Part shown: one piece after another, positions 26,807 through 40,218 of the stretch
Layout: each line of letters opens with the position of its first letter
How positions within the stretch are numbered: position 1 is the stretch's first letter
Assembly (NCBI GenBank): GCA_019192445.1
Contig: JAHCMK010000009.1
Coordinates: 1 to 64,000 of the forward strand
DNA: 64,000 nt
Source of the DNA: Oceanococcus sp. HetDA_MAG_MS8
Lineage (GTDB): Bacteria > Pseudomonadota > Gammaproteobacteria > Nevskiales > Oceanococcaceae
Direction of reading: 5' to 3'
The notes under the pieces: model-generated
Told to the model about the DNA's origin: nothing
Seen by the model: only the letters and a program-made list of their open reading frames with translations
The model's database searches: none
Position numbers and translations under genes: made by a program

Positions 26807-26996
26807 GGGCGAGGCTCAATTGATGTCTTCCTGAGGGTTAATCTAGCGCTTTGGCGACTCCCTGGGCAGGGCATTTGGGGCCGTTGATGCCGCATTTTCG
26901 GCCAGTGCCTGGCGCCGCAGTGGGGCCGGTGTTTGCAGGCCGATGCCATTCATCCCAGCGGGCGATGCTGCCCGCAGCGCCAACACAGGAGACGTG

Positions 26997-28010
26997 ATGA
27001 CCCCATCCGCGCCGGTTCTTCACCCTTGGGCCATTGCTCAAGTGATGGTGAACTTTGCCGCCAAACACGGTGTTGGCATGCAGCGCTGTTTGGAGCAGAC
27101 CGGCATCGACCCCGCGCAGATTGGCAGTGAATACCTCATTCAAAGAGCCCAAGAGCTGCGCCTTATTCGGAATATCATCGCCGCCTTGCCCGACCACCCT
27201 GCCTTGGGCTTTGAGCTGGGATTGCAATACAGCATGTCGACCTTTGGCCTGTGGGGTTTCGCCTTGCGGACCAGCCAAACCTTGCGTCAAGCCGTAGAGA
27301 CGGCACTGCGCTACCTGCCATTGAGCACGGCGTATTGCGATTTCAGCATTGCATACAAGCCCCAAGAGGTCTGCTTGCTAGTCGATGCTGGGAAGGTGCC
27401 TGAGGATGTGCGTCCGTTTTTGCTCGAACGCGATATGGCCACCGCCTCCTGCCTGTTGCAGGAGCTCAGCCTGAGCGGCATCCACCTCAAAGCTTTGCGC
27501 TTCGCAGGACCAGCGCCGACCTATGCCGCCCGTTTGGCCGAGTTAAGTGAGGTGCAGCCAGAGTTTGGTAGCGATGCCAACGCGCTGGTCTTGCACCCAC
27601 AAGATTTGGAGCTACCGCTGCCCATGTACGATGCGGCTTTGGTGCGAATGTTTGAGGACCAATGTCGGGCCCAACTGCAGCGCCGCCAGCCCGCCGGCCT
27701 GGAGGGCAAGGTGCGCCATTTGCTGCTGGGGCCCTTGGGGCTGGTGTCTACCCTGGAAGATGTGGCGCAGGCGCTGGCCATGTCGCCGCGTAATCTGCGC
27801 CGCAAATTGGATGAGGCCGGTACCAGTTTCCGGGCCATTGCTGATCAAGAGCGCCGGCTCCTGGCCCAGAGTTTGCTCCGCACGACCGATATGACCCTGG
27901 ACGAAATCGCCCTGCAGTTGGGGTATACCGATACCGCGAGTTTCAGCCGTGCCTGTCGGCGCTGGTTTTCCCAGTCGGCCGGAGAGTATCGCCAGCAACA
28001 CAGCCTTTGA
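26997..28010 (+). CDS. AraC-family transcriptional regulator
   Basis: A 337-residue regulator with the Arabinose_bd-type N-terminal domain used by OruR/ArgR-like AraC proteins (LGFELGLQYSMSTFGLWGFALRTSQTL) and a C-terminal double helix-turn-helix (VAQALAMSPRNLRRKLDEAGTSF, then IALQLGYTDTASFSRACRRWF). CAGGAG at 26986-26991 sets ATG 26997. It lies 190 bp from the divergent desaturase gene and 92 bp before the dikinase-like gene; either could be its target. Confidence 0.85.
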   Translation: MTPSAPVLHPWAIAQVMVNFAAKHGVGMQRCLEQTGIDPAQIGSEYLIQRAQELRLIRNIIAALPDHPALGFELGLQYSMSTFGLWGFALRTSQTLRQAVETALRYLPLSTAYCDFSIAYKPQEVCLLVDAGKVPEDVRPFLLERDMATASCLLQELSLSGIHLKALRFAGPAPTYAARLAELSEVQPEFGSDANALVLHPQDLELPLPMYDAALVRMFEDQCRAQLQRRQPAGLEGKVRHLLLGPLGLVSTLEDVAQALAMSPRNLRRKLDEAGTSFRAIADQERRLLAQSLLRTTDMTLDEIALQLGYTDTASFSRACRRWFSQSAGEYRQQHSL

Positions 28011-28102: not shown

Positions 28103-31087
28103 ATGGAGAATCGAGTGGTCGCACAGCGACCTGAGCAGACGCAGTGCCGTCCAGCTGGCAGCGCGAGCCTAGCGTTGCGGCTCCTTGTCTCGCTGGGTGT
28201 GGCCTTGGCGCTGCTTCCCGGAACGACGTGGGCTGCAGAGCCAGCAGATCAGCAAACACAAACCCTTCTCACCAGCTGGAAGCAGGCCGAGCGCGGTCCC
28301 TTTGTGGGGGTGCGCTGGTACTGCGCCGATGGGTCCGTGCGTATGCCACGACCCTACGCCTGCGAAGAAGTGGGAGGAGGTCGCCAACACGGGCTCTGGT
28401 TGCAGTCAGCGCAGAATTTGCGTGAGAACGGATACTGGATCGCCAACATCCTGGCGGCGATTCCACCGCAGCAGTTAGCGGCACAGACGGATGCCGGGCT
28501 GGATGTGCTGACCTCGGTTTTGATCGAACGCTATCTCATGGCGCGCGATGACGGCTGGATTTGGCGCCAAGCCCGCTATTTCCGCGGCGTGCTGCAAGAT
28601 GACGATGAGCGCCAAGCTGCGCGGACAGCCTTGCTGCGCATGCTGGCCGATGATCAGCCGCGTAAAGCCCGGTTGGCGCTGATTCGTGAGGCCGCGCGGC
28701 AGCTTCCCATAGAGGGCGCGAGCGCGCCCCTGCAACGGATTAGAACGCTATCCAACCAGCTGGCCGAGCAAGTGCCGGCTTTGGCGCCGCTGCGCAATAA
28801 AATCCACACGCGTTTGCAGCCTGAAGATGCTCAGGCTGTACGTCGGGCGCAGGCATTGACCGATCAACCCGAGGTACAAACGGAGCTGGAGAATTTGGCG
28901 CGGAGCATCGACGCCTTATTTAGCTCTGCAGAGCTGCCCCAAAAGCTGCGTCAGTTCGCTCGCTACAACCCTCCTGTGACTGATGCACTGCAAACGGCGG
29001 CTGATGTACTAGCCTCCAGTGCACCGGCGTCGGTGGCTGATCTGCGCAGGCTGGCCTGGGCGCAAACGCGGTTGTTGCACCTCATCGCAGGGGATGGTCA
29101 GCCTGCAGGGCGCTTAGAAGCCGTGCAGCTAAGCCTGGCCTTGGAAGAGAGAATCTTTGCGTTGGGGCAGCGTTGGCTGGAGGCTCAGTCACGCCCACAA
29201 CGCGCGGAACTGGTGGACTGGCTGGATTACAACCTGCGCGCCTTGTTCGGTGCAGCCTTTATTACCGAAACCGAGTATGACGCCGCGGCCAAGGCTATAC
29301 GCCAACTCAAGCAATCGGCTTTGATGGTAGAAGATTATCGCCAGGCCCTGTCGACCTTGGAGCGAGTGCCGCAGTGGGCGCGCCGTCGCTATGTGTTGTT
29401 CTTCGGCCCCATGCAGAACACATTGAGTGCCATCGAGCCTATGGCTGCGGACTTTGTCACGGACCGTCTGCGCGCCAGCCCTGTGTTGGTCCACAGCCGC
29501 ATGATGGATTGGCTGCAACGAGATCTGGCCCTGGAGCTTGGGTTGGAGCATCGCATTCTTGGCGAGCCCTTGGCCTCCGGTCTCCAAGTGCTCAACCCCG
29601 GTGTGGCACAGGGCATGCTGCGAGGTACGCAGGAGCTGCAGTTAGCTCAGGATCGGCCACAAATTGCTTTGGTCGAAGAAACGGTCGCGGATCTTCCCAG
29701 CGTTGCTGGCATCATCACAGCGGATGCTGGCAATGCCTTATCCCATGTACAACTCCTCGCCCAGAACCTGGGTATTCCAAATGTCGTGGCGAGTGGGCCG
29801 GCCTTAGAGCGGCTGCAAAAGGCGCGACAGCAAGAGTTGTTCATGGCCGCCAGCCCCGGCGGAGTCGTGCACATACTCGGCAAAACGCCTGAGCTGGCCG
29901 TGGCGGAACAAGCGGGTGCGGCAGGACCTAGCCCCTTGCAGCCAAACCTCGCCAAGCTGGAATTGGATCTTCCTGCGGGTCGATCGGGTTTCATTGGCTT
30001 GAGTGATTTGACCTTGGCGGATTCCGGGCGCCGGGTGGGCCCCAAGGCGGCCAAGTTAGGGGAGTTGGCGCAGCGCTTTCCCGGGACGGTCTCGCCGGGG
30101 CTGGCGATTCCTTTTGCCTGGTTTGCCCGTATGTTGGAGCAGCCCCGGCAAGGTCAAGCTGGCCCATTTCGGGATTGGTTGGCGCAGCGCTATGCCCAGT
30201 GGCAGGCCATGCCTGCAGGCGAGGCGCGCCGTGCCCTGTTGCAGCAAACCTTGCAAGCTGCGCAGGAGCATATGCAAACGGCGCCCTTTCCTGCTGGGTT
30301 TCAAGAAGGGTTGCGCGCAGCGATGGTCAGGCAATTTGGCGCGCTAGGAGAGTTTGGTGTCTTCGTGCGCAGTGATACCAATATTGAGGACCTGCCCAAT
30401 TTCTCCGGGGCAGGACTGAATAAGACGGTTCCTCATGTGGTGGGCTGGGAGCCGACCTTGGCAGCGATTCGCAGTGTCTGGGCCTCGGTGTTCAGTGAAC
30501 GTTCTTGGGGTTGGCGCCAAGCCATGATTCCTGACCCCATGAATGTATATGCCGCTGTGCTGCTCCATCAAAGTGTGGATGTCGGCGCCTCGGGCGTGCT
30601 GATTACCCAAGGCTCACCATCCCGTGCCCCCTTCCCGCTCAAGCTGACGATGAATGAAGGGCCAGGTGGTGGCGTGTCCGGGCAGTCTGCCGAGAGTTGG
30701 GAGTTACAGAAGGGCGGTCAGGCGCAATTTTTGCAATCCGCCACCGAGCCCTATCGTTACGCTCTCAAAGAACAGGGTGGGGTCCGTCAGCAGCGGGTCA
30801 AAAATATTGGTCTGCTACTCAATTCTGCCCGCCAACAACGTTTGCTCAAGCTGGTGGAACAGATTGCACAGTGCTGTACGGATTTGCTCGATGATGGCGC
30901 TGAGGTTCAGCCTGCGGATGTGGAGTTCGGCTTTAGCGGCAATAACCTGGTGTTGTTCCAAATTCGGCCTTTAGTCCAGAACCGTGACGCCACTAGCAAC
31001 GCATACCTTCAGGCGCTAGATCAGCCCATGGCGGAGTTCGCTCGGCGCCGCATTGCTATGCAGCAGCCCGTGAGTGTGGAGTTATGA
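28103..31087 (+). CDS. Exported PEP-synthase/glucan-dikinase-like protein
   Basis: A 994-residue protein. ATG 28103 gives a long basic N-region, a hydrophobic core (LALRLLVSLGVALALLPG) and an A-x-A-like site (TTWA-AEP), i.e. a signal peptide. Residues about 50-500 are helical and unrecognised. A PEP-utiliser mobile domain follows, with phospho-His at about residue 548 (NALSHVQLLAQNLGIPNVVA). Then comes the ATP/PEP-binding domain: RSDTNIEDLPNFSGAGLN from about residue 756, SGVLIT, and VEFGF..NNLVLFQIRPL at the end. His domain before ATP domain is the order of alpha-glucan water dikinase, not PEP synthase, and the PEP-binding TIM barrel is missing. Substrate unknown. Its stop overlaps the next start (ATGA). 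Confidence 0.75.
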   Translation: MENRVVAQRPEQTQCRPAGSASLALRLLVSLGVALALLPGTTWAAEPADQQTQTLLTSWKQAERGPFVGVRWYCADGSVRMPRPYACEEVGGGRQHGLWLQSAQNLRENGYWIANILAAIPPQQLAAQTDAGLDVLTSVLIERYLMARDDGWIWRQARYFRGVLQDDDERQAARTALLRMLADDQPRKARLALIREAARQLPIEGASAPLQRIRTLSNQLAEQVPALAPLRNKIHTRLQPEDAQAVRRAQALTDQPEVQTELENLARSIDALFSSAELPQKLRQFARYNPPVTDALQTAADVLASSAPASVADLRRLAWAQTRLLHLIAGDGQPAGRLEAVQLSLALEERIFALGQRWLEAQSRPQRAELVDWLDYNLRALFGAAFITETEYDAAAKAIRQLKQSALMVEDYRQALSTLERVPQWARRRYVLFFGPMQNTLSAIEPMAADFVTDRLRASPVLVHSRMMDWLQRDLALELGLEHRILGEPLASGLQVLNPGVAQGMLRGTQELQLAQDRPQIALVEETVADLPSVAGIITADAGNALSHVQLLAQNLGIPNVVASGPALERLQKARQQELFMAASPGGVVHILGKTPELAVAEQAGAAGPSPLQPNLAKLELDLPAGRSGFIGLSDLTLADSGRRVGPKAAKLGELAQRFPGTVSPGLAIPFAWFARMLEQPRQGQAGPFRDWLAQRYAQWQAMPAGEARRALLQQTLQAAQEHMQTAPFPAGFQEGLRAAMVRQFGALGEFGVFVRSDTNIEDLPNFSGAGLNKTVPHVVGWEPTLAAIRSVWASVFSERSWGWRQAMIPDPMNVYAAVLLHQSVDVGASGVLITQGSPSRAPFPLKLTMNEGPGGGVSGQSAESWELQKGGQAQFLQSATEPYRYALKEQGGVRQQRVKNIGLLLNSARQQRLLKLVEQIAQCCTDLLDDGAEVQPADVEFGFSGNNLVLFQIRPLVQNRDATSNAYLQALDQPMAEFARRRIAMQQPVSVEL

Positions 31088-32349
31088 AATGGTGCGCCTT
31101 GCTACTGGGCGTGTGGGCTGGGTTCGTTTCAGCGTATCCCTTGGATGGCTATGAGCGCACCGGTATTCGACGCCTGGATTTCTACGCGCGCGGACATAGC
31201 GGAGAGATTGCCAACGTGCGTCGCCAGCACCCGGGGGCGCTGTTACCGCTAGACCAAGTTCAAATACCTCCAGCTGGCACCTTTGCCCACAGCTTTCCGC
31301 AGGCCATGGATACATCGCTGCGGGACGAGATTCGTTCTGCCCTGGGTGTTCATGCCGACAGCTATGCCTTGCATCTGGTGGACTTGAGTGATGCCAAGCA
31401 GATCGAGGTTGTGGACTGGCATGCTGAGCGCTTAGGCAATGTTGGCAGTGTAGGCAAGCTGTTGGTGGCCTTGGCAGTTCTGCACCAACTCCAGCAGTGG
31501 TGGCCAGAGCCCGAGCAGCGCTTGGAGATTCTGCGAAATACGCAGGTAGTGGCGAGTAGCATTGCCACGCCAGACCACCACAAGGTGCCGATTTGGCAGC
31601 CTACGGAACAAGAGCTGCAATACCGTCCGCTACAACCTGGCGATCAAGCCAGTCTCTTTGAGTATTTGGACTGGATGATCAGTGCAAGCTCCAATGCCGC
31701 CGCTTCAGTGCTAATGCAGCAAGTCATCTTGCTGGCCCACATGCAGCGTGACTACGCCGCGTCGTCAGCGCGGCGGGAGCGCGTCTGGGCGGAGCTAAAT
31801 AAAGTGCAGCGAGGCGAGGTTTTGGCTGAAGCGATGGACCGGGCGGTAGTCGCAGCGGGTTTGGACCCTGAGCAATTACGCCAGGGCAGCTTGCTCACGC
31901 GTCAAGGTAAGGCGCAGGTGGCCAGCCGGCAGAGCTACGCCAGCCCACTGGCTTTGAATCAGATGCTGTATCGGATGCTGCAAGGGAAATTATTGGATCG
32001 CTTCAGTAGTCATGAGATGCTGCGGCTGATGTACCAAACGCAGCGGCGCATCCGCTACGCCTCGCATCCGGTACTCACCGACTCAGCCGTATACTTTAAG
32101 TCGGGTTCTTTATACAGCTGTAAACCTGAAGAGGGTTTTAGCTGTGGTCCTTATCGAGGCAACCGCATCAACTTATTGACCTCAACGATTCTGGTGCAGT
32201 ACCCCGCGGATGAGCCGCAAGTTCAGTACCTGGTCAGTGTGCGCTCAAACGTACTGAGGGTTAATTCCGCAGTGGCGCACCAGCGCTTGGCGGGCGCCAT
32301 TCATCGTCTCATGCTGCAAAAGCACGGAGTAGTACAGGGTGCCGAGTAG
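31084..32349 (+). CDS. Exported serine hydrolase, class A beta-lactamase-like
   Basis: A 421-residue protein with signal peptide MKWCALLLGVWAGFVSA. It has the penicillin-recognising order of motifs: S122-V-G-K125 (S-x-x-K, acylated Ser), S202-S-N204 (S-x-N) and K339-S-G-S (K-T/S-G). The class A Glu of the omega loop is not obvious, so a D,D-peptidase-like or other amidase role is at least as likely as beta-lactamase. The domain is longer than usual, with an 85-residue N-terminal extension and an insert after S-x-N. It is translationally coupled to the dikinase-like gene before it and overlaps the transporter gene after it. Confidence 0.78.
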   Translation: MKWCALLLGVWAGFVSAYPLDGYERTGIRRLDFYARGHSGEIANVRRQHPGALLPLDQVQIPPAGTFAHSFPQAMDTSLRDEIRSALGVHADSYALHLVDLSDAKQIEVVDWHAERLGNVGSVGKLLVALAVLHQLQQWWPEPEQRLEILRNTQVVASSIATPDHHKVPIWQPTEQELQYRPLQPGDQASLFEYLDWMISASSNAAASVLMQQVILLAHMQRDYAASSARRERVWAELNKVQRGEVLAEAMDRAVVAAGLDPEQLRQGSLLTRQGKAQVASRQSYASPLALNQMLYRMLQGKLLDRFSSHEMLRLMYQTQRRIRYASHPVLTDSAVYFKSGSLYSCKPEEGFSCGPYRGNRINLLTSTILVQYPADEPQVQYLVSVRSNVLRVNSAVAHQRLAGAIHRLMLQKHGVVQGAE

Positions 32350-33625
32350 AGCTCACGGGCAGCAAAGCAAGGCGGCGCGGAATGTCGCGGCACTTCGGGC
32401 AGTCGGCCTAACTGGGTCGTTTTTCTTGGTGATGCTGGCCTACTATCAGGTCAAACCCGCAAGTCGGTCGTTGTTTCTCGAGCATCTTTCGGCCCAGGCC
32501 TTGCCGTATTTATGGATTGCCTCGGCGCTGATGATTGGCCTGCTCATGCCCCTGTATCAGCGCTGCATCCAAAAAATTCCCCGCGTACAGCTGGTGGTGA
32601 GCAGCATTGTTCTCAGCCAGGCTGGTTTGGTGTGGTTTTGGTATCAGCTGGATAGTGCCGGGCCGGTGACGGCAGTTGCTTTCGCGATATTCACCGACAT
32701 CATGAGCGTGGTTTTAGTGGAGCAGGTGTGGAGCCTAGCCAATTCCAGTTTCGTGCTAGCTGAAGGCCGGCGCTGGTATGGCTTAGTAGCCAGTGGGGGC
32801 TTGCTGGGTGGGATGGTGAGTGGTGGACTGGGCTCGGTGTTGCTTAGCCGCTTCGATCTGCCAACCTCGGATTTGCTAATGGTGGCCGTTCTGATACTGG
32901 TCGTTCTGGCCGTCGTCACTATTGTTTTCTCGCGCGTGGGCTTGTTCGTAGAGCGCCAGGGCTATCGCGCTCTGCCGGTGGGCAGCATGCACTCCTTCAA
33001 GCAAATGTTGGCTCAGCCGTATTTGCTTGGAATTGCCGGAATATTACTCACTGCGCAATTAATCGCCCCGGTTATCGAGTATCAGTTCCTCTCCATCGTC
33101 GAAGTGAACTACCCCGATCGAGACCCGAGAACAGCGTACTTAGCCGGATTTTTTGCGCTGCTTTCAGCCTGCGCTTTGGCCACCAACTTAGTTGTTGTTC
33201 CGGTGATATTGCGCCAGTTCGGCACGCTGGGAGGCTTGCTAGTGCAGCCGCTGCTGGTCTTGCTCTCTAGCTTGGCCTTTATGGTGGTGAGCAGCTTGCC
33301 GGTGGCAGCGCTTATGAAAATCAGCGACCGGGGTCTGTCTTACTCCATCAACCGCGTGTCCAGGGAGTTGCTCTATGTGCCGGTGGATGGCGAACTGATC
33401 TACAAAGCTAAGGCTTGGATCGATATGTTTGGCTACCGCCTGTTCCGTATCCTGGGGTCGCTGCTGATCAAGATCTGTACGGTATGGCTGCCCTGGTCGC
33501 TGGAACTAGAAGAGCTGAGCTGGATCACCGTGGTGACGGTCGCCTTGTGGGTGTACTTAATTGCTCGTATCGCCCAAACCCGGCTGGGTCGTCTAGCCAA
33601 TTACAACCGCGCGGCTCCGGCTTAG
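32339..33625 (+). CDS. Npt1/Npt2-type nucleotide transporter-like membrane protein
   Basis: A 428-residue inner-membrane protein with about eleven to twelve hydrophobic helices. AYYQVKPASRSLFLEHLSA, WSLANSSFVLAEGRRWYGLVASGGLLGGMVSGGLG and KISDRGLSYSINRVSRELLYVPVDGELIYKAKAWID are the blocks shared by bacterial relatives of ATP/ADP translocases. Bona fide NTT carriers are longer (about 500 residues), and many short relatives are uncharacterised, so nucleotide transport is a family-level guess. It starts with GTG at 32339 inside the end of the serine hydrolase gene. Being in one operon with a predicted periplasmic ATP-dependent enzyme makes nucleotide export an attractive idea. Confidence 0.72.
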   Translation: MPSRAHGQQSKAARNVAALRAVGLTGSFFLVMLAYYQVKPASRSLFLEHLSAQALPYLWIASALMIGLLMPLYQRCIQKIPRVQLVVSSIVLSQAGLVWFWYQLDSAGPVTAVAFAIFTDIMSVVLVEQVWSLANSSFVLAEGRRWYGLVASGGLLGGMVSGGLGSVLLSRFDLPTSDLLMVAVLILVVLAVVTIVFSRVGLFVERQGYRALPVGSMHSFKQMLAQPYLLGIAGILLTAQLIAPVIEYQFLSIVEVNYPDRDPRTAYLAGFFALLSACALATNLVVVPVILRQFGTLGGLLVQPLLVLLSSLAFMVVSSLPVAALMKISDRGLSYSINRVSRELLYVPVDGELIYKAKAWIDMFGYRLFRILGSLLIKICTVWLPWSLELEELSWITVVTVALWVYLIARIAQTRLGRLANYNRAAPA

Positions 33626-33673
33626 CCTTCGATTTGGGCGAACAGTCGCTCGGGTGTCTTTGACGGGGCTTTG

Positions 33674-35053
33674 TTACTCGGCGCTGGCCACATCCACAGA
33701 AGCAGCTGCTAAGGGGTGGTGGATGATGCTATCCATGGACACGATTAAGTCGCTGAGCCAGCGACTACCCTGAGCCGATTGGGCCAGCGCCACGGCAATG
33801 TAGCGTCGACCATCACGCTCGACCAAAGCCGCATCCGAGTGATAGTTCCGCCAGGTCCCAGATTTGCGAAAAATGCGTGACTCTGGAGCGGCCTGCCGCA
33901 AGCCTTTGACGAACTTGTGAGCAATGGCAGGTTTGCCCATGGTGCGTTTGATGGCAGCCGAAAGCTCGGTGGAGACCAATTGCCCGGTTTCCATCAGGTA
34001 TAAAAATCGAGCAACTTGGATGGGTGTGGCGCCATGCGAGATGCCGTGTAACGGATCGCGCTTCCAGGCTGGACCTTTGGAATAGGGTTTTCCGACCCAG
34101 AGCCCACCATTGTATTCAGGATCATAAAGGCCATAGCGAAGCAGCGTATCGGCCAGATAATCCGGGCCCACCTTTTCGTACACGGCGGTGGCCGCAGCGT
34201 TGGATGAGCTGCGAATCATCTTGGTTAAGGTGGCTTGGGTTTGCGGGTCGTAATCCAGTTCACCGTCTGCCACTTTCTGCATGGCACCAAGCAAAATGCC
34301 AATTTTCGGCAGGCTGGCGGCATACATCATTTGGTCGCCATTCAAGGCGGCCATTTGCGGCGCCGCAGGCTCCGTGATGTCGACCAGCGCCACCGCCAGT
34401 TGTTGCTTGCTCACGGCTCGGCTTAGGCCAAGGTTGGCAATTTCGTGTTCAAGCTGCTCTTGCAAGCGTTGGCTCTGACATTGACGCAGCTCAGGGAAGA
34501 CGACTGCGGCAGGCTCTTCTTCAGCGTGGAAACTGGGAGCATTGGCTGCGGCATGGCTCGCTGGGCCGGCCGCCAAACCAGGTGCCGCTTGCATGGCCAG
34601 AGCCGTACCCATGGCTGCGGCCCACAGACGTTTCTGCATACGCAATTTGTCGTTCAGTGCCTGCTGGCTAATGGCACCCTGAGCAACCAACTCTTCGCCT
34701 AGATGGCGCTTACTTCGCTTTTGGGCGGTCAGTGCCTGTTGCAATTGGGTTTGGGTGATTTGCCCGGTGGATACTAGGAGCTGACCGAGCTGTAGTCCAC
34801 AGCGACGGCGCAACAATGGCGCTGGAGCAACCATGCGGAAAAACTCGCGGGCCGTTTGCTGAAGTTCTCTGAGGCGAGCCTGCAGGGTCAGTGTCAAGCG
34901 TTGTTCTTCCCGGTTCAGTAAGCCGCGTCGGCGCAGAATATCGCCCAAGGGTTTGGATAGGCGGGGTTGATGACGCAGAGCGTTATCCACATCGTAGTCG
35001 TGAACGAAGCCACCACGGACCAACATTTCTCCAAGTTTGCTTGCATCGCTCAC
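33674..35053 (-). CDS. MshEN-like domain fused to a periplasmic serine hydrolase
   Basis: A 459-residue protein in three parts. Residues 6-58 and 87-140 are two MshEN-like units, each with the L-G-x-x-L-x-x-x-G motif twice (for example LGQLLVSTGQITQTQLQQAL then HLGEELVAQGAISQQALNDK). This motif binds cyclic di-GMP in type II/IV secretion ATPases. Residues 143-163 form a membrane helix or uncleaved signal. The C-terminal domain is class A-like: S247-L-P-K250, S283-S-N285 and K397-S-G-T. It converges with the transporter gene 48 bp away. A cytoplasmic second-messenger sensor driving a periplasmic hydrolase is the inferred design. Confidence 0.75.
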   Translation of the reverse strand: MSDASKLGEMLVRGGFVHDYDVDNALRHQPRLSKPLGDILRRRGLLNREEQRLTLTLQARLRELQQTAREFFRMVAPAPLLRRRCGLQLGQLLVSTGQITQTQLQQALTAQKRSKRHLGEELVAQGAISQQALNDKLRMQKRLWAAAMGTALAMQAAPGLAAGPASHAAANAPSFHAEEEPAAVVFPELRQCQSQRLQEQLEHEIANLGLSRAVSKQQLAVALVDITEPAAPQMAALNGDQMMYAASLPKIGILLGAMQKVADGELDYDPQTQATLTKMIRSSSNAAATAVYEKVGPDYLADTLLRYGLYDPEYNGGLWVGKPYSKGPAWKRDPLHGISHGATPIQVARFLYLMETGQLVSTELSAAIKRTMGKPAIAHKFVKGLRQAAPESRIFRKSGTWRNYHSDAALVERDGRRYIAVALAQSAQGSRWLSDLIVSMDSIIHHPLAAASVDVASAE

Positions 35054-36722: not shown

Positions 36723-38144
36723 CTAGGCGCGAAACTCTTCCGGAATGGTCAACTCATAGGTCACCCCGGTGCCTTGGCCAGGAGCGCCGGCAACGAAGTT
36801 GGCCAGGTTTTGCAGTCCGGGCAGGATGGGGCCGCGCTGCGAGCTGAAGTACAGTCTAGAGCCATCTGGCGAGAAGGCAGGTCCGCAAATTTCCGAGCCT
36901 TCATGGCGGACTTCGACCAGGGTTTTGGCCGGCTCGTTGGGGATGACCACCATGATGCGAATAGCCCGACCGGACTCCGTGAGGTCCTCGGCCACCAGCA
37001 CATCACCAGCCGGGCTGACGGTGAGGTTGTCCACGTCATTGAAGGCTGGCGTGATTTGCTCGTTATCGAAGATCAACTCAATCAGGTCGTTCTCCACGTC
37101 GTAGGCAAAGACGCGGTTGTCTGACTTGGTGGTGAAGAAGGCGATGCCGCGGGTGGGCTTGCTACCGCCAGGCGGAACGCTTTGGACTTCTTCAGGGAGT
37201 TCATAGAACCACAGGCCTTCGCCGCCCCGGAAGCGGGTGCCGGGTACGCTGTCACCGGCGCCAGCCAAAGCGGAGCGCACTTCCACCTGCGGCTGATCCG
37301 GGCTGACCACATCCACCCAAGTCACGCGCCGCAGTTGGCGAATATCGGCCACGTCCTCGGGATAGCCACCGTCTTCGAAGCCTTCGATGTTCATCACCTG
37401 CAGGCGACCGTTCTCCAAGGCCAGACGTTGGCTGGACTCAGACCAGTCGCTGGCATCGGCCACCCAGCGGTAGAAGCGCCCATCGCCGGTATCCTCAGTT
37501 TGGTAGACCACCTTGTTACGCAGATCGACGGCAGCGGCTTCGTGCTTGAAGGTGCCCAGAGAGGGCTTGGCCACGCCACCAACAACGCCGTAAGGGTCGG
37601 TTTCCCAAGTCAGCCCGGTGTCAATTTCTTCGCAGGACAGCCAGGTGTTCCAGGGCGTGCTGCCACCGGCACAGTTGGTGCTGGTGTTGGTCAGAATCGG
37701 GTAGGCATCGACGACGGTGCCGTCCGGATCAAAGACCAGTGCACCCACGCCGCCGATACCGGGGATTTCCGAGTTGGAGGTGTAAATCCAGCCGCCGTTT
37801 TCCCGCGGGTAGCAGGCGCCACCATCGGGGAAAGCATGCCAAGGATAAAGGCTGCCCACCGCCGGAGGTAGTCCATGGCGAGCCACGGCGCGGACGCTAA
37901 AACCTTCTGGTACCGCAATACCCTCGATGAGATCGGGCTCACCCAGCGGGCCAATGTTGGCCAGCGGGCCGGTGGGAATGAACAGCTCGCCACCCATGGC
38001 GGGGTTGGGGCTGCCTTCGCGCAGTCCTGCGCCTGACTGACCACCCTGACAGGCTTGTAACAGCGGCAGACTGGCCGCTGCGCCACCAGATAACAATAAG
38101 CCGCGCAGCAGGCTGCGCCGGCTGGTATCGATATTCAATGACAT
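36723..38144 (-). CDS. DUF839 (PhoX-like) Tat-exported lipoprotein, second copy
   Basis: A 473-residue paralogue of the protein at 19348-20820. ATG 38144 has AGGAG upstream; a longer frame to 38192 lacks one. The Tat signal SRRSLLRGLLLSGGAAASLP leads to a lipobox LLQACQ. Shared blocks: GPLANIGPL, the motif NCAGGSTPWNTWLSCEE, FSPDGSRLYFSSQRGP and the C-terminus GTGVTYELTIPEEFR. It probably folds as the same propeller and may be a metal-dependent phosphatase. Both copies end in nearly the same residues, pointing to duplication. Confidence 0.82.
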   Translation of the reverse strand: MSLNIDTSRRSLLRGLLLSGGAAASLPLLQACQGGQSGAGLREGSPNPAMGGELFIPTGPLANIGPLGEPDLIEGIAVPEGFSVRAVARHGLPPAVGSLYPWHAFPDGGACYPRENGGWIYTSNSEIPGIGGVGALVFDPDGTVVDAYPILTNTSTNCAGGSTPWNTWLSCEEIDTGLTWETDPYGVVGGVAKPSLGTFKHEAAAVDLRNKVVYQTEDTGDGRFYRWVADASDWSESSQRLALENGRLQVMNIEGFEDGGYPEDVADIRQLRRVTWVDVVSPDQPQVEVRSALAGAGDSVPGTRFRGGEGLWFYELPEEVQSVPPGGSKPTRGIAFFTTKSDNRVFAYDVENDLIELIFDNEQITPAFNDVDNLTVSPAGDVLVAEDLTESGRAIRIMVVIPNEPAKTLVEVRHEGSEICGPAFSPDGSRLYFSSQRGPILPGLQNLANFVAGAPGQGTGVTYELTIPEEFRA

Positions 38145-38337
38145 GGGGGTTCTCCTGTGATCACGCACAAAATGGGGGAGCGCGCACTCCAATGGCGTTA
38201 TATCGTACGCATCGGATGTGTCATCTCTATGAAATCTCTTTGTGTCTAGTAGATGCCTTGCTCGCAGCCGAAGGCGGCGCCGTGGGTATGCCCTGACCGC
38301 GAGCGGTCAGGCGGGCAGTTGGGCCAGAGCGGGGGGC

Positions 38338-40197
38338 TTAGTCGAAAAAGTGCTGCCAGCCCAACCAGTATTCCGGCACCGTCTGTCCTTGTGGGCCGGC
38401 CTGGGTCAGGTTGAGCCGAAGACTGTGCTGGCGGCCGAGATGCCAGGTTGCCCGTAGCGTGGCTTCTTGCTCGGTCAGGCCAGTACTCTCCCAGCGCTGG
38501 GTGGCGCGCAGGAGTAAATGCGTATTGGAGCCGTGGTAGAGCAGCCCCAAGTCGGGGCCCAGCCCCAGATGCGGGTCGCGGTCCATATGCCAGGGGGCAT
38601 CGACGCGGGCCTGGAGTAGGGCGAAGCTCTGCCAACGGCGCCCCCAGAACCAGCTACCGCCGCCGCCTCCGCTGAGGTGCCAATCCAAATCCTGAGCTAG
38701 GGTGAAGGGGGCTCGCTCCAGCCCAAAGCGCACGCCCCAGCTCCAGGGGCTGAAAAAGGCGTCACGCGGGGTGAGGCTAAGGATGTTCACCAGATCCAGT
38801 TGCTGCAGTTGCAGCTGATCCTGAGCCCAGCGCAGGCGCATGGCGCCGATATTGATCTGAGCGCCACGCAAGAAGCCGTGCGCATTGTCATCCAGATCAT
38901 GAAAGGACCAACGCAGCCCCAGTTCGGAAAAGCCCTGGCCATCGCGTTCACCCAGCCGCAAACTGAGTTGGCGGCTGTGGTGGGATTCTTCGGGGGCGCC
39001 AGGGCGCGGAGGGTCTGCTGGCTGCGTAGCCACGCCAGCATTGATGGCCCGCAGCAGTCGGTGACTGCGGGCGGCGACGGCGGGCTGTAATGCCGCTTTG
39101 CTGTTGTTGAACCGCAAGTATTCGTAGGCGGTATCAATGATTACAGCTTGTTGCTCTGCGGGCAGTGACTGAAAGTCGGGGTGGTCTAGCAGGCTGGTAT
39201 CGGCGGCCAGCTTTTTGACCCAGGGTTGCTGCTCTGGTGGCAGTGCCGCCAGCCTCGCCTCCAGCCGAGTGCCGCGCGCCGGCCTGTAGTCCTGGCGGGT
39301 GATAAGCCCCGCCTCGCCCACGGCGCGGATGGTGTCGATGGGGATGGCCGTCCAGCGAAAGTCTTCGGTGAGCTCTAAACCCGGACGGGCAATCTCCAGC
39401 ATCTCTAACACCCGGTAGGAGCAGTTCTTATCGAAGAAGTAGTAATCGAAGGCAATGTCTTTGAGTTCCCACAGGTGGCGCACCATTCGCGTGGTCTCTA
39501 CCGGGCTGAGATCCAGCGGGTACTCCCAAACATCGCGATTCTCGATGCCGTTGTACTCCTGGATTTTCTCAAAGTAGGGGCTGACGATGAACCGTCCCGG
39601 ATAGCCCCCGGTCAAGCCCTTCCAGGCATACAGCATGGAATTGTCTTGTTGGGTGATATCGGCGCCGAAGCTCACCGAGAAGCTCAGCCAATCGCTCCAG
39701 CCCGGATCAGCCGGTGGGTCCAGACGCAGCAGCGTATGACCAAACATGGAAGAGGGGCTGTTTAAGTGATACGCCGGGAATACCAGCGTCACGCGGGTCG
39801 GTCGAACCATAGCCTGCCACTCGGCCAACAGCTCGCACACTTCCAAAGGGTTGGCGGTCGTGGACCAATCCAGGCGTGATTGCAAAAAAGCACGGCGGGC
39901 CGGGAACCGACACAGAGGGTGCTGCTCGGTGTAGGGGCCGGGCTGGCTCAGAGCCCAGAGGGTCGCGGCCAGTTCGGCAGCCGGCTGGGCTGCTTCGCTG
40001 AGCCAGAAATTGGCGTCGCGGACCTCAGAGTGGCGCTGGTCGGCAGGCCAGTGCAAAAGCTGACGCCATTGCGGGTCATCGGCCAATTGCAGGTCGCGGG
40101 CCTGCTCGAGGGCAGAGAGCAGATCAGCCTGAGCGGCGGTGCAGCAACCCAGATACAGCGTCAGCGCCAGCAGATGGCGCAGCAAGACAGATGGCAT
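38338..40197 (-). CDS. DUF4105 / Lnb N-terminal periplasmic domain protein
   Basis: A 619-residue envelope protein with a signal peptide (LLALTLYLGCCTAAQA). The DUF4105 core is evident: VTLVFPAYHLNSPSSMFGHTLLRLD, then LSFSVSFGADI, YAWKGLTGGYPGRFIVSPYFEKIQEYNGIENRDVWEYPLDLS, and FFDKNCSYRVLEMLEIARP. These carry the conserved His and Cys of a predicted cysteine-peptidase-like fold. The C-terminal 220 residues look like outer-membrane beta-strands (GLRWSFHD, GVRFGLERAPF, YWLGWQHFFD). The family appears in bacterial lipoprotein and surface proteolysis; the substrate is unknown. A terminator separates it from the DUF3015 gene upstream. Confidence 0.8.
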   Translation of the reverse strand: MPSVLLRHLLALTLYLGCCTAAQADLLSALEQARDLQLADDPQWRQLLHWPADQRHSEVRDANFWLSEAAQPAAELAATLWALSQPGPYTEQHPLCRFPARRAFLQSRLDWSTTANPLEVCELLAEWQAMVRPTRVTLVFPAYHLNSPSSMFGHTLLRLDPPADPGWSDWLSFSVSFGADITQQDNSMLYAWKGLTGGYPGRFIVSPYFEKIQEYNGIENRDVWEYPLDLSPVETTRMVRHLWELKDIAFDYYFFDKNCSYRVLEMLEIARPGLELTEDFRWTAIPIDTIRAVGEAGLITRQDYRPARGTRLEARLAALPPEQQPWVKKLAADTSLLDHPDFQSLPAEQQAVIIDTAYEYLRFNNSKAALQPAVAARSHRLLRAINAGVATQPADPPRPGAPEESHHSRQLSLRLGERDGQGFSELGLRWSFHDLDDNAHGFLRGAQINIGAMRLRWAQDQLQLQQLDLVNILSLTPRDAFFSPWSWGVRFGLERAPFTLAQDLDWHLSGGGGGSWFWGRRWQSFALLQARVDAPWHMDRDPHLGLGPDLGLLYHGSNTHLLLRATQRWESTGLTEQEATLRATWHLGRQHSLRLNLTQAGPQGQTVPEYWLGWQHFFD

Positions 40198-40218
40198 CAA
40201 GACATCTCAGGAGCAAGA

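Follow-up and report, generated by a model that had tools for sequence, protein, structure and literature searches.

A conserved four-gene module combining a probably exported dikinase, an ATP/ADP-translocase relative and two penicillin-binding-type hydrolases in Oceanococcus and other bacteria

The combination of an ATP-grasp domain with a swivelling phospho-histidine (phospho-His) domain is shared by rifampin phosphotransferase, phosphoenolpyruvate (PEP) synthase and PPDK (PF01326 plus PF00391), in which the ATP-grasp domain comes first. In the plant glucan water dikinase (GWD) and in PWD the His domain is followed by a C-terminal ATP domain, and these dikinases act on a large glycan in a compartment, the plastid, to which NTT transporters can supply ATP. 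These transporters (PF03219) are known from Chlamydia, Rickettsia and plastids. According to textbook teaching, ATP is absent from the periplasm. Here we describe a locus at positions 28103-35053 of a stretch of 64,000 nucleotides (the window; Oceanococcus sp. HetDA_MAG_MS8, contig JAHCMK010000009.1), where a dikinase and a carrier related to these proteins are encoded together with two hydrolases of the penicillin-binding protein (PBP) type, one of which resembles the DD-peptidase PBP-A (Tll2115) of Thermosynechococcus.

The four genes of this locus constitute one conserved functional unit, referred to below as the module. In the window they are arranged as follows.

28103-31087, plus strand: dikinase-like gene, 994 aa from the ATG at 28103; Pfam PPDK_N and PEP-utilizers
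31084-32349, plus strand: hydrolase 1, predicted exported serine hydrolase of the Beta-lactamase2/PBP fold; Pfam Beta-lactamase2, E 2e-11
32339-33625, plus strand: NTT-family carrier relative (TLC, PF03219); Pfam TLC ATP/ADP transporter, E 4e-14
33674-35053, minus strand: hydrolase 2, serine hydrolase, Beta-lactamase2/PBP-A-like; Pfam Beta-lactamase2, E 5e-19

The dikinase gene is coupled to that of hydrolase 1 through an ATGA overlap, the genes of hydrolase 1 and the carrier have 11 bases in common, and the gene of hydrolase 2 is convergent to this run. An earlier note on this DNA had proposed three plus-strand genes with stop/start overlaps and a convergent fourth gene at 28103-35053, encoding a signal-bearing, PEP-synthase-like or glucan-dikinase-like protein with phospho-His and ATP-binding domains, a relative of the ATP/ADP translocases and two penicillin-binding-like hydrolases, the first of them signal-bearing. 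The coordinates and overlaps were confirmed, and each family assignment is supported by Pfam.

The unity of the module is apparent from its distribution. Each of the four families was searched in 369 genomes of the class to which the window belongs. The dikinase is present in 34 of these, from many families, and the homologues are full length with 33-40% identity, save for a more distant paralogue and a small number of copies truncated by contig ends. Hydrolase 1 was found in all 34 dikinase-positive genomes versus 2 of the 335 dikinase-negative ones, hydrolase 2 in 32/34 versus 1/335, the module-type carrier in 27/34 versus 0/335, and an NTT relative of any kind in 33/34 versus 52/335 (Fisher p for the co-occurrence of the partners with the dikinase, 9e-23 to 5e-46). 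In genome G264, which has hydrolase 1 and in which the dikinase was not found, hydrolase 1 lies less than 500 bases from a contig end, so that the dikinase may just be absent from the assembly. Sixty distinct loci extend for 4.5 kb or more to either side of the dikinase, and among these hydrolase 1 occurs in 57, hydrolase 2 in 51, an NTT relative in 50 and all three in 46. In 86 of 93 loci the gene of hydrolase 1 immediately follows that of the dikinase in the same orientation, and in 47 the two overlap slightly. The gene order is variable, as the carrier gene may come after hydrolase 1, before the dikinase or past hydrolase 2, and the same content in a shifting order points to a functional linkage, not to an inherited accident. 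Moreover, the pairwise distances of the four families are correlated (r 0.76-0.87, Mantel p 0.001; shared species history contributes to this), and the families thus evolve in step, as expected for co-inherited genes. The survey of co-occurrence by which the earlier note had proposed to judge the set was therefore strongly positive, and the neighbourhood recurs across many families, contrary to the outcome that the note had named as refuting its view.

The dikinase also extends beyond the class. It is present in 24 of 299 genomes of a phylum sample, 19 of these 24 belonging to a single genus that lies outside the class. When GTDB contigs were scanned with the dikinase alignment, at least 565 loci with full-length homologues (32-40% identity) were obtained. 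The 80 relatives that were kept of these at least 565 comprise Gammaproteobacteria (Sinimarinibacterium, Hydrocarboniphaga, Guyparkeria, Halothiobacillus, Marinobacter, Parahaliea and Agaribacterium), Burkholderiales, Desulfobacterota, Mariprofundus, and metagenome-assembled genomes (MAGs) labelled Nitrospirae and Myxococcales.

The dikinase is composed of a predicted signal peptide, a mostly helical domain (residues ~50-480), a phospho-His domain (~490-600) and a C-terminal ATP-grasp domain (~630-960). Pfam matches cover residues 526-574 (PEP-utilizers His domain, E 1e-5) and 644-968 (PPDK_N, E 3e-21), and PF00391 was matched in 28 of 28 members. The catalytic residues are H548, K648, R756, T775, E941 and Q953, of which the first five are invariant in 52/52 homologues and in essentially all of 114. 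According to profile alignments, and not to a superposition, K648 corresponds to Lys22 of rifampin phosphotransferase, R756 to Arg117, T775 to Thr136 (the same spacing of +19), E941 to Glu297 and H548 to His825, all of which were found important by mutagenesis or structure (PMC4844700). In view of this invariance the dikinase very probably has phosphotransferase activity and, given the chemistry of its superfamily, would release AMP and inorganic phosphate (Pi).

The Lys, Arg, Thr, Glu, Gln and His of rifampin phosphotransferase, PEP synthase and PPDK are thus all present in the module dikinase, and the closest solved folds are those of rifampin phosphotransferase and PEP synthase (Foldseek; the alignment spans ~340 columns, roughly the length of the ATP domain). 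The likeness to PEP synthase that had been proposed earlier is supported by Pfam and by the invariant residues, whereas the likeness to glucan dikinases is weak: the GWD phospho-His profile (PF22973) was matched at E<0.1 in 3 of the 28 members, with a best E of 0.008. Nevertheless, the architecture departs from that of the PEP synthase group. The order is new domain, His domain, ATP-grasp domain, the protein is predicted to be exported, and neither a PEP barrel is present nor a RIF-binding domain, which rifampin phosphotransferase has between its ATP-grasp and C-terminal His domains; a Pfam match to the PEP/pyruvate-binding barrel was obtained in 0 of the 28 members, the N-terminal part being helical instead. 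An identity as rifampin phosphotransferase was rejected on the basis of this domain order and of the score against NCBIfam Rph (52 bits, cut-off 999). The new N-terminal domain of ~430 residues contains an invariant Cys pair and had no Pfam match. In the AlphaFold model (pLDDT 86.9) this part scores mostly 80-95, and it likely binds the acceptor of the phosphate. Two deviating copies were encountered: in G009 the dikinase gene is interrupted by an in-frame TAG (L057, 7832-10885), possibly a pseudogene or a sequencing error, and G174 has a second, distant and longer paralogue of 1411 aa (L062, 4713-8948) that has kept the His/ATP order and is not adjacent to other module genes.

Export of the dikinase is very probable. 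The homologues have a hydrophobic N-terminal segment, followed by small residues as recognized by signal peptidase, and a 12-residue mean hydropathy of at least 2.0 is reached in the N-terminus of 48/52. In addition, C74 and C87 are invariant in 52/52 and are the only cysteines in 26/52. For comparison, the cytoplasmic PEP synthase of the window's genome has 9 cysteines and lacks a hydrophobic N-terminus. A hydrophobic N-terminus together with a lone invariant Cys pair is the pattern of a periplasmic protein with one structural disulfide. Hydrolase 1 likewise has a hydrophobic N-terminal segment of the signal-peptide type, as had been noticed before, and an invariant Cys pair (C346/C354).

The carrier of the module has 428 aa and 12 predicted helices, as counted from the helix list of its AlphaFold model. 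The best PDB matches of this predicted model are ATP/ADP translocators (9j3m, 9j3l and 9j3n, E 6e-12, TM 0.77). At the top of the ranking stand AtNTT1 and the NTT1 of Chlamydia with ADP or ATP bound (E 6e-12 to 6e-11, TM 0.77), whereas the next proteins of the major facilitator superfamily (MFS) have E-values that are worse by three to four orders of magnitude. The functional residues K155, E245, E385 and K527 of AtNTT1 (PMC10654386) fall on K71, E161, E301 and K443 of the AtNTT1 chain when the profile alignment is read with a single numbering offset of 84. E245 is represented by D120 and E385 by E/D247 in 25/25 module carriers, and K527 by K370 in 24/25, with R in the window, so that three of the four signature charges are either kept or replaced by a similar residue. 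By profile, predicted fold and most of the key residues, the carrier is an NTT-family protein, in agreement with its initial description. It is set apart from the described NTT transporters by its length, by the missing position of K155, by a score of 50 bits against the curated NCBIfam NTT model (cut-off 387), by its occurrence in free-living hosts and by its place beside an exported ATP-type enzyme.

Seven of the dikinase-positive genomes of the class lack a module-type carrier, and in six of these another NTT relative is present. At loci without the module-type carrier, a distant single-domain NTT, an NTT-HEAT fusion or a relative that carries a cyclic-nucleotide-binding domain (cNBD) is often close by, and thus the NTT function seems to be replaced and not lost. 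Several module loci additionally hold NTT-HEAT fusions or cNBD-carrying NTT relatives. Such fusions were described by Major et al., who left their function unknown and the roles of NTTs in free-living bacteria open (PMC5381601). In several deltaproteobacterial MAGs, MFS/NTT-like proteins of ~1050-1117 aa that end in a cNBD are encoded near the module (e.g. L096, 6587-9940; L133, 13599-16745; L143, 6651-9812).

The active-site motifs of the PBP type are intact in both hydrolase families, in line with the initial assignment. SxxK, SxN and KSG are found at 122-125, 202-204 and 339-341 of hydrolase 1 and at 247-250, 283-285 and 397-399 of hydrolase 2, and they are invariant in 32/32 and 24/24 members of the two families, respectively. 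The only match of the hydrolase 2 profile in the PDB is PBP-A, which has an active site of the same type and is a DD-carboxy/endopeptidase acting on peptidoglycan (PMC11189452). The similarity is distant (E 6e-5), and hydrolase 2 differs from PBP-A in being a near-constant genetic partner of the dikinase. No solved relatives were found for hydrolase 1, nor when the hydrolase domain from the window's copy of hydrolase 2 was used by itself. An identity as class A beta-lactamase was rejected, as hydrolase 1 scored 26 bits against a cut-off of 200 and hydrolase 2 had no match. Considering the similarity to PBP-A and the score below the class A cut-off, the likeliest substrate of the hydrolases would be peptidoglycan or a peptide-bearing fragment. 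In the window, hydrolase 2 begins with a part of ~140 residues (34630-35053, minus strand), not noticed in the earlier note, with two MshE-type c-di-GMP-binding motif stretches (NF053729, E 1e-22), after which one membrane or signal segment follows near residues 143-163. At the loci read, no copy other than the window's had this MshE-type part, and it hence appears to be a lineage-specific fusion; it suggests that c-di-GMP controls hydrolase 2 in this species.

The module is in our opinion best explained as an ATP-fed envelope phosphorylation system of carrier, dikinase and hydrolases, a reading that has about the same chance of being right as of being wrong. The NTT-type carrier would move cytoplasmic ATP out across the inner membrane and bring used nucleotide, either AMP or ADP and perhaps phosphate along with it, back in. 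On the outer face, the ATP-grasp domain of the dikinase would transfer the beta-phosphate of ATP to H548 of the swivelling domain, thereby freeing AMP and Pi, and the phospho-His would then donate its phosphoryl group to a hydroxyl on an envelope acceptor that is bound by the N-terminal domain. This same material, most probably peptidoglycan or a fragment bearing peptides, would be cut or trimmed by the two PBP-type hydrolases after their export. What we infer here is which solute the carrier moves and in which direction, what reaction the dikinase catalyses and on which acceptor, and what the hydrolases act on. More tentatively, and with a somewhat less than even chance, the module could provide a dedicated periplasmic ATP supply, in which ATP/AMP exchange by the NTT carrier feeds the phosphorylation of peptidoglycan, or of some other polymer of the envelope, by the dikinase working together with the two hydrolases.

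Several points weigh against an ATP-fed phosphorylation of the envelope. PBP-type folds are also found in esterases and beta-lactamases. Foldseek matched the ATP domain of the dikinase only, its N-terminal domain having no relative among the solved structures, and in one dikinase-positive draft genome (G233) an NTT match was not found. The weakest step is the substrate and direction of the carrier. The position of K155 is a gap in the module carriers and the exchanged nucleotide may therefore differ. This residue has been implicated in the binding of ADP by AtNTT1 (PMC3306366), and one may speculate that its absence reflects a different counter-substrate, such as the AMP that the dikinase would make. 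Moreover, according to work cited in PMC5381601, transport of nucleotides by NTT4 of Simkania failed in heterologous hosts.

The absent counterpart of K155 would also fit a carrier that imports a phosphorylated product (e.g. a phospho-muropeptide or a phospho-sugar released by the hydrolases) or another anion, with lysis, leakage or a different exporter as the source of ATP for the dikinase. NAD carriers and proteins without measurable nucleotide transport are known in the NTT family (PMC5381601), and the seven genomes without a module-type carrier point in the same direction. Nevertheless, the ATP/ADP-bound translocators are a far better fold match than any other MFS protein, sugar-phosphate carriers included, and NTT relatives are retained in six of those seven genomes, with NTT-HEAT fusions at several loci; import of a product is the most serious of the alternatives, though an unlikely one. 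Nucleotide scavenging, in which the carrier would import environmental nucleotides and the dikinase would interconvert ATP and AMP for uptake or signalling, is in accordance with the import by characterised NTTs (PMC5381601) and with the cyclic-nucleotide-binding domains that adjoin some modules. However, it needs neither a phospho-transfer enzyme with an extra N-terminal domain nor two wall-type hydrolases in nearly every genome, and we regard it as improbable.

Somewhat less probable still is the periplasmic detoxification of an antibiotic or xenobiotic by a rifampin-phosphotransferase-like dikinase and two hydrolases of the beta-lactamase fold. The nearest solved ATP domain is indeed that of rifampin phosphotransferase, and the Pfam family Beta-lactamase2 covers both hydrolases, but the dikinase has no RIF-binding domain and a different domain order (PMC4844700), hydrolase 2 resembles the peptidase PBP-A and neither hydrolase reaches the class A beta-lactamase cut-off. 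A mobile or plasmid-borne resistance was rejected since plasmid records contained no match to the dikinase, and the bacteria that carry it are free-living, from many lineages and with congruent distances. A known anti-phage defence system was rejected as well (no PADLOC match).

The earlier note had further proposed that the transporter could supply nucleotide to a periplasmic phosphorylation, and that dikinase and hydrolases share a wall or glycan substrate. The nucleotide supply and the wall part of this proposal are retained above as likely, whereas osmoregulated periplasmic glucan and glycogen were rejected as general acceptors: OpgG is present in 8 of the 34 dikinase-positive genomes, glycogen synthase (GlgA) was not found in the window's genome and seven other dikinase-positive genomes, and the window's genome thus lacks both pathways, OpgG included. 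Phosphorylation of an osmoregulated periplasmic glucan or an alpha-glucan, after the manner of plant glucan water dikinase, is consequently very improbable and already contradicted for the window's own species, despite the GWD-like order of His and ATP-grasp domains and the few weak profile matches, and the module dikinase moreover differs from GWD and PWD in that no starch-binding domains were found, in its location in a bacterial envelope and in an acceptor that is not glycogen.

Around the four genes the neighbourhood is variable. The dikinase gene of the window lies 92 bases downstream of the following gene.

26943-28010, plus strand: AraC-family regulator; Pfam Arabinose_bd and HTH_18

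This gene did not recur at other module loci and is possibly a local regulator outside the conserved module. Downstream (36723-40200, minus strand) a PhoX-family protein, whose N-terminus has a Tat-like signal, and a Lnb_N/DUF7840-type protein are encoded, ordinary neighbours for which recurrence with the module was not seen. A common fifth gene was rejected, since the candidates (the response-regulator/kinase, pyruvate kinase, Lon and SDF-SBP3 proteins described below, and the cNBD-carrying NTT-like proteins) each recur in only 7-10 of 102 loci and so resemble additions made in particular lineages. One of them, a possible regulator in which a response-regulator receiver is joined to a Ser/Thr protein kinase, is encoded near the dikinase in 10 of the 102 loci, often divergently (L094, 8076-9359, minus strand; also L040, L072, L078, L080, L081, L095, L104 and L130). 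A pyruvate kinase gene is found near the module in 10 loci, and pyruvate kinase and Lon protease genes lie near split module halves in L078, L081, L094, L130, L139, L040 and L059. In addition, a fusion of a sodium:dicarboxylate symporter with a family 3 solute-binding domain (SDF-SBP3) is located beside the module in 8 loci (L123, 16020-18236; L135, 15399-17621; L117, 9833-11977; and five further loci).

In agreement with the earlier note, no published description of a system of this make-up was found in the open-access full texts that the search covered. Although each of the domains is known, no counterpart was found there for the architecture of the exported dikinase, for its near-obligate association with an NTT carrier and two PBP-type hydrolases, or for the chemistry that this implies. 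The module points to a widespread modification of the envelope not known so far, and the presence of an exported, apparently intact dikinase and an ATP/ADP-translocator relative in one module would make ATP chemistry in the periplasm directly testable. A dedicated ATP supply, if true, would mean that these genomes encode an exception to the rule of the ATP-free periplasm and would account for the presence of carriers of the energy-parasite type in some free-living bacteria.

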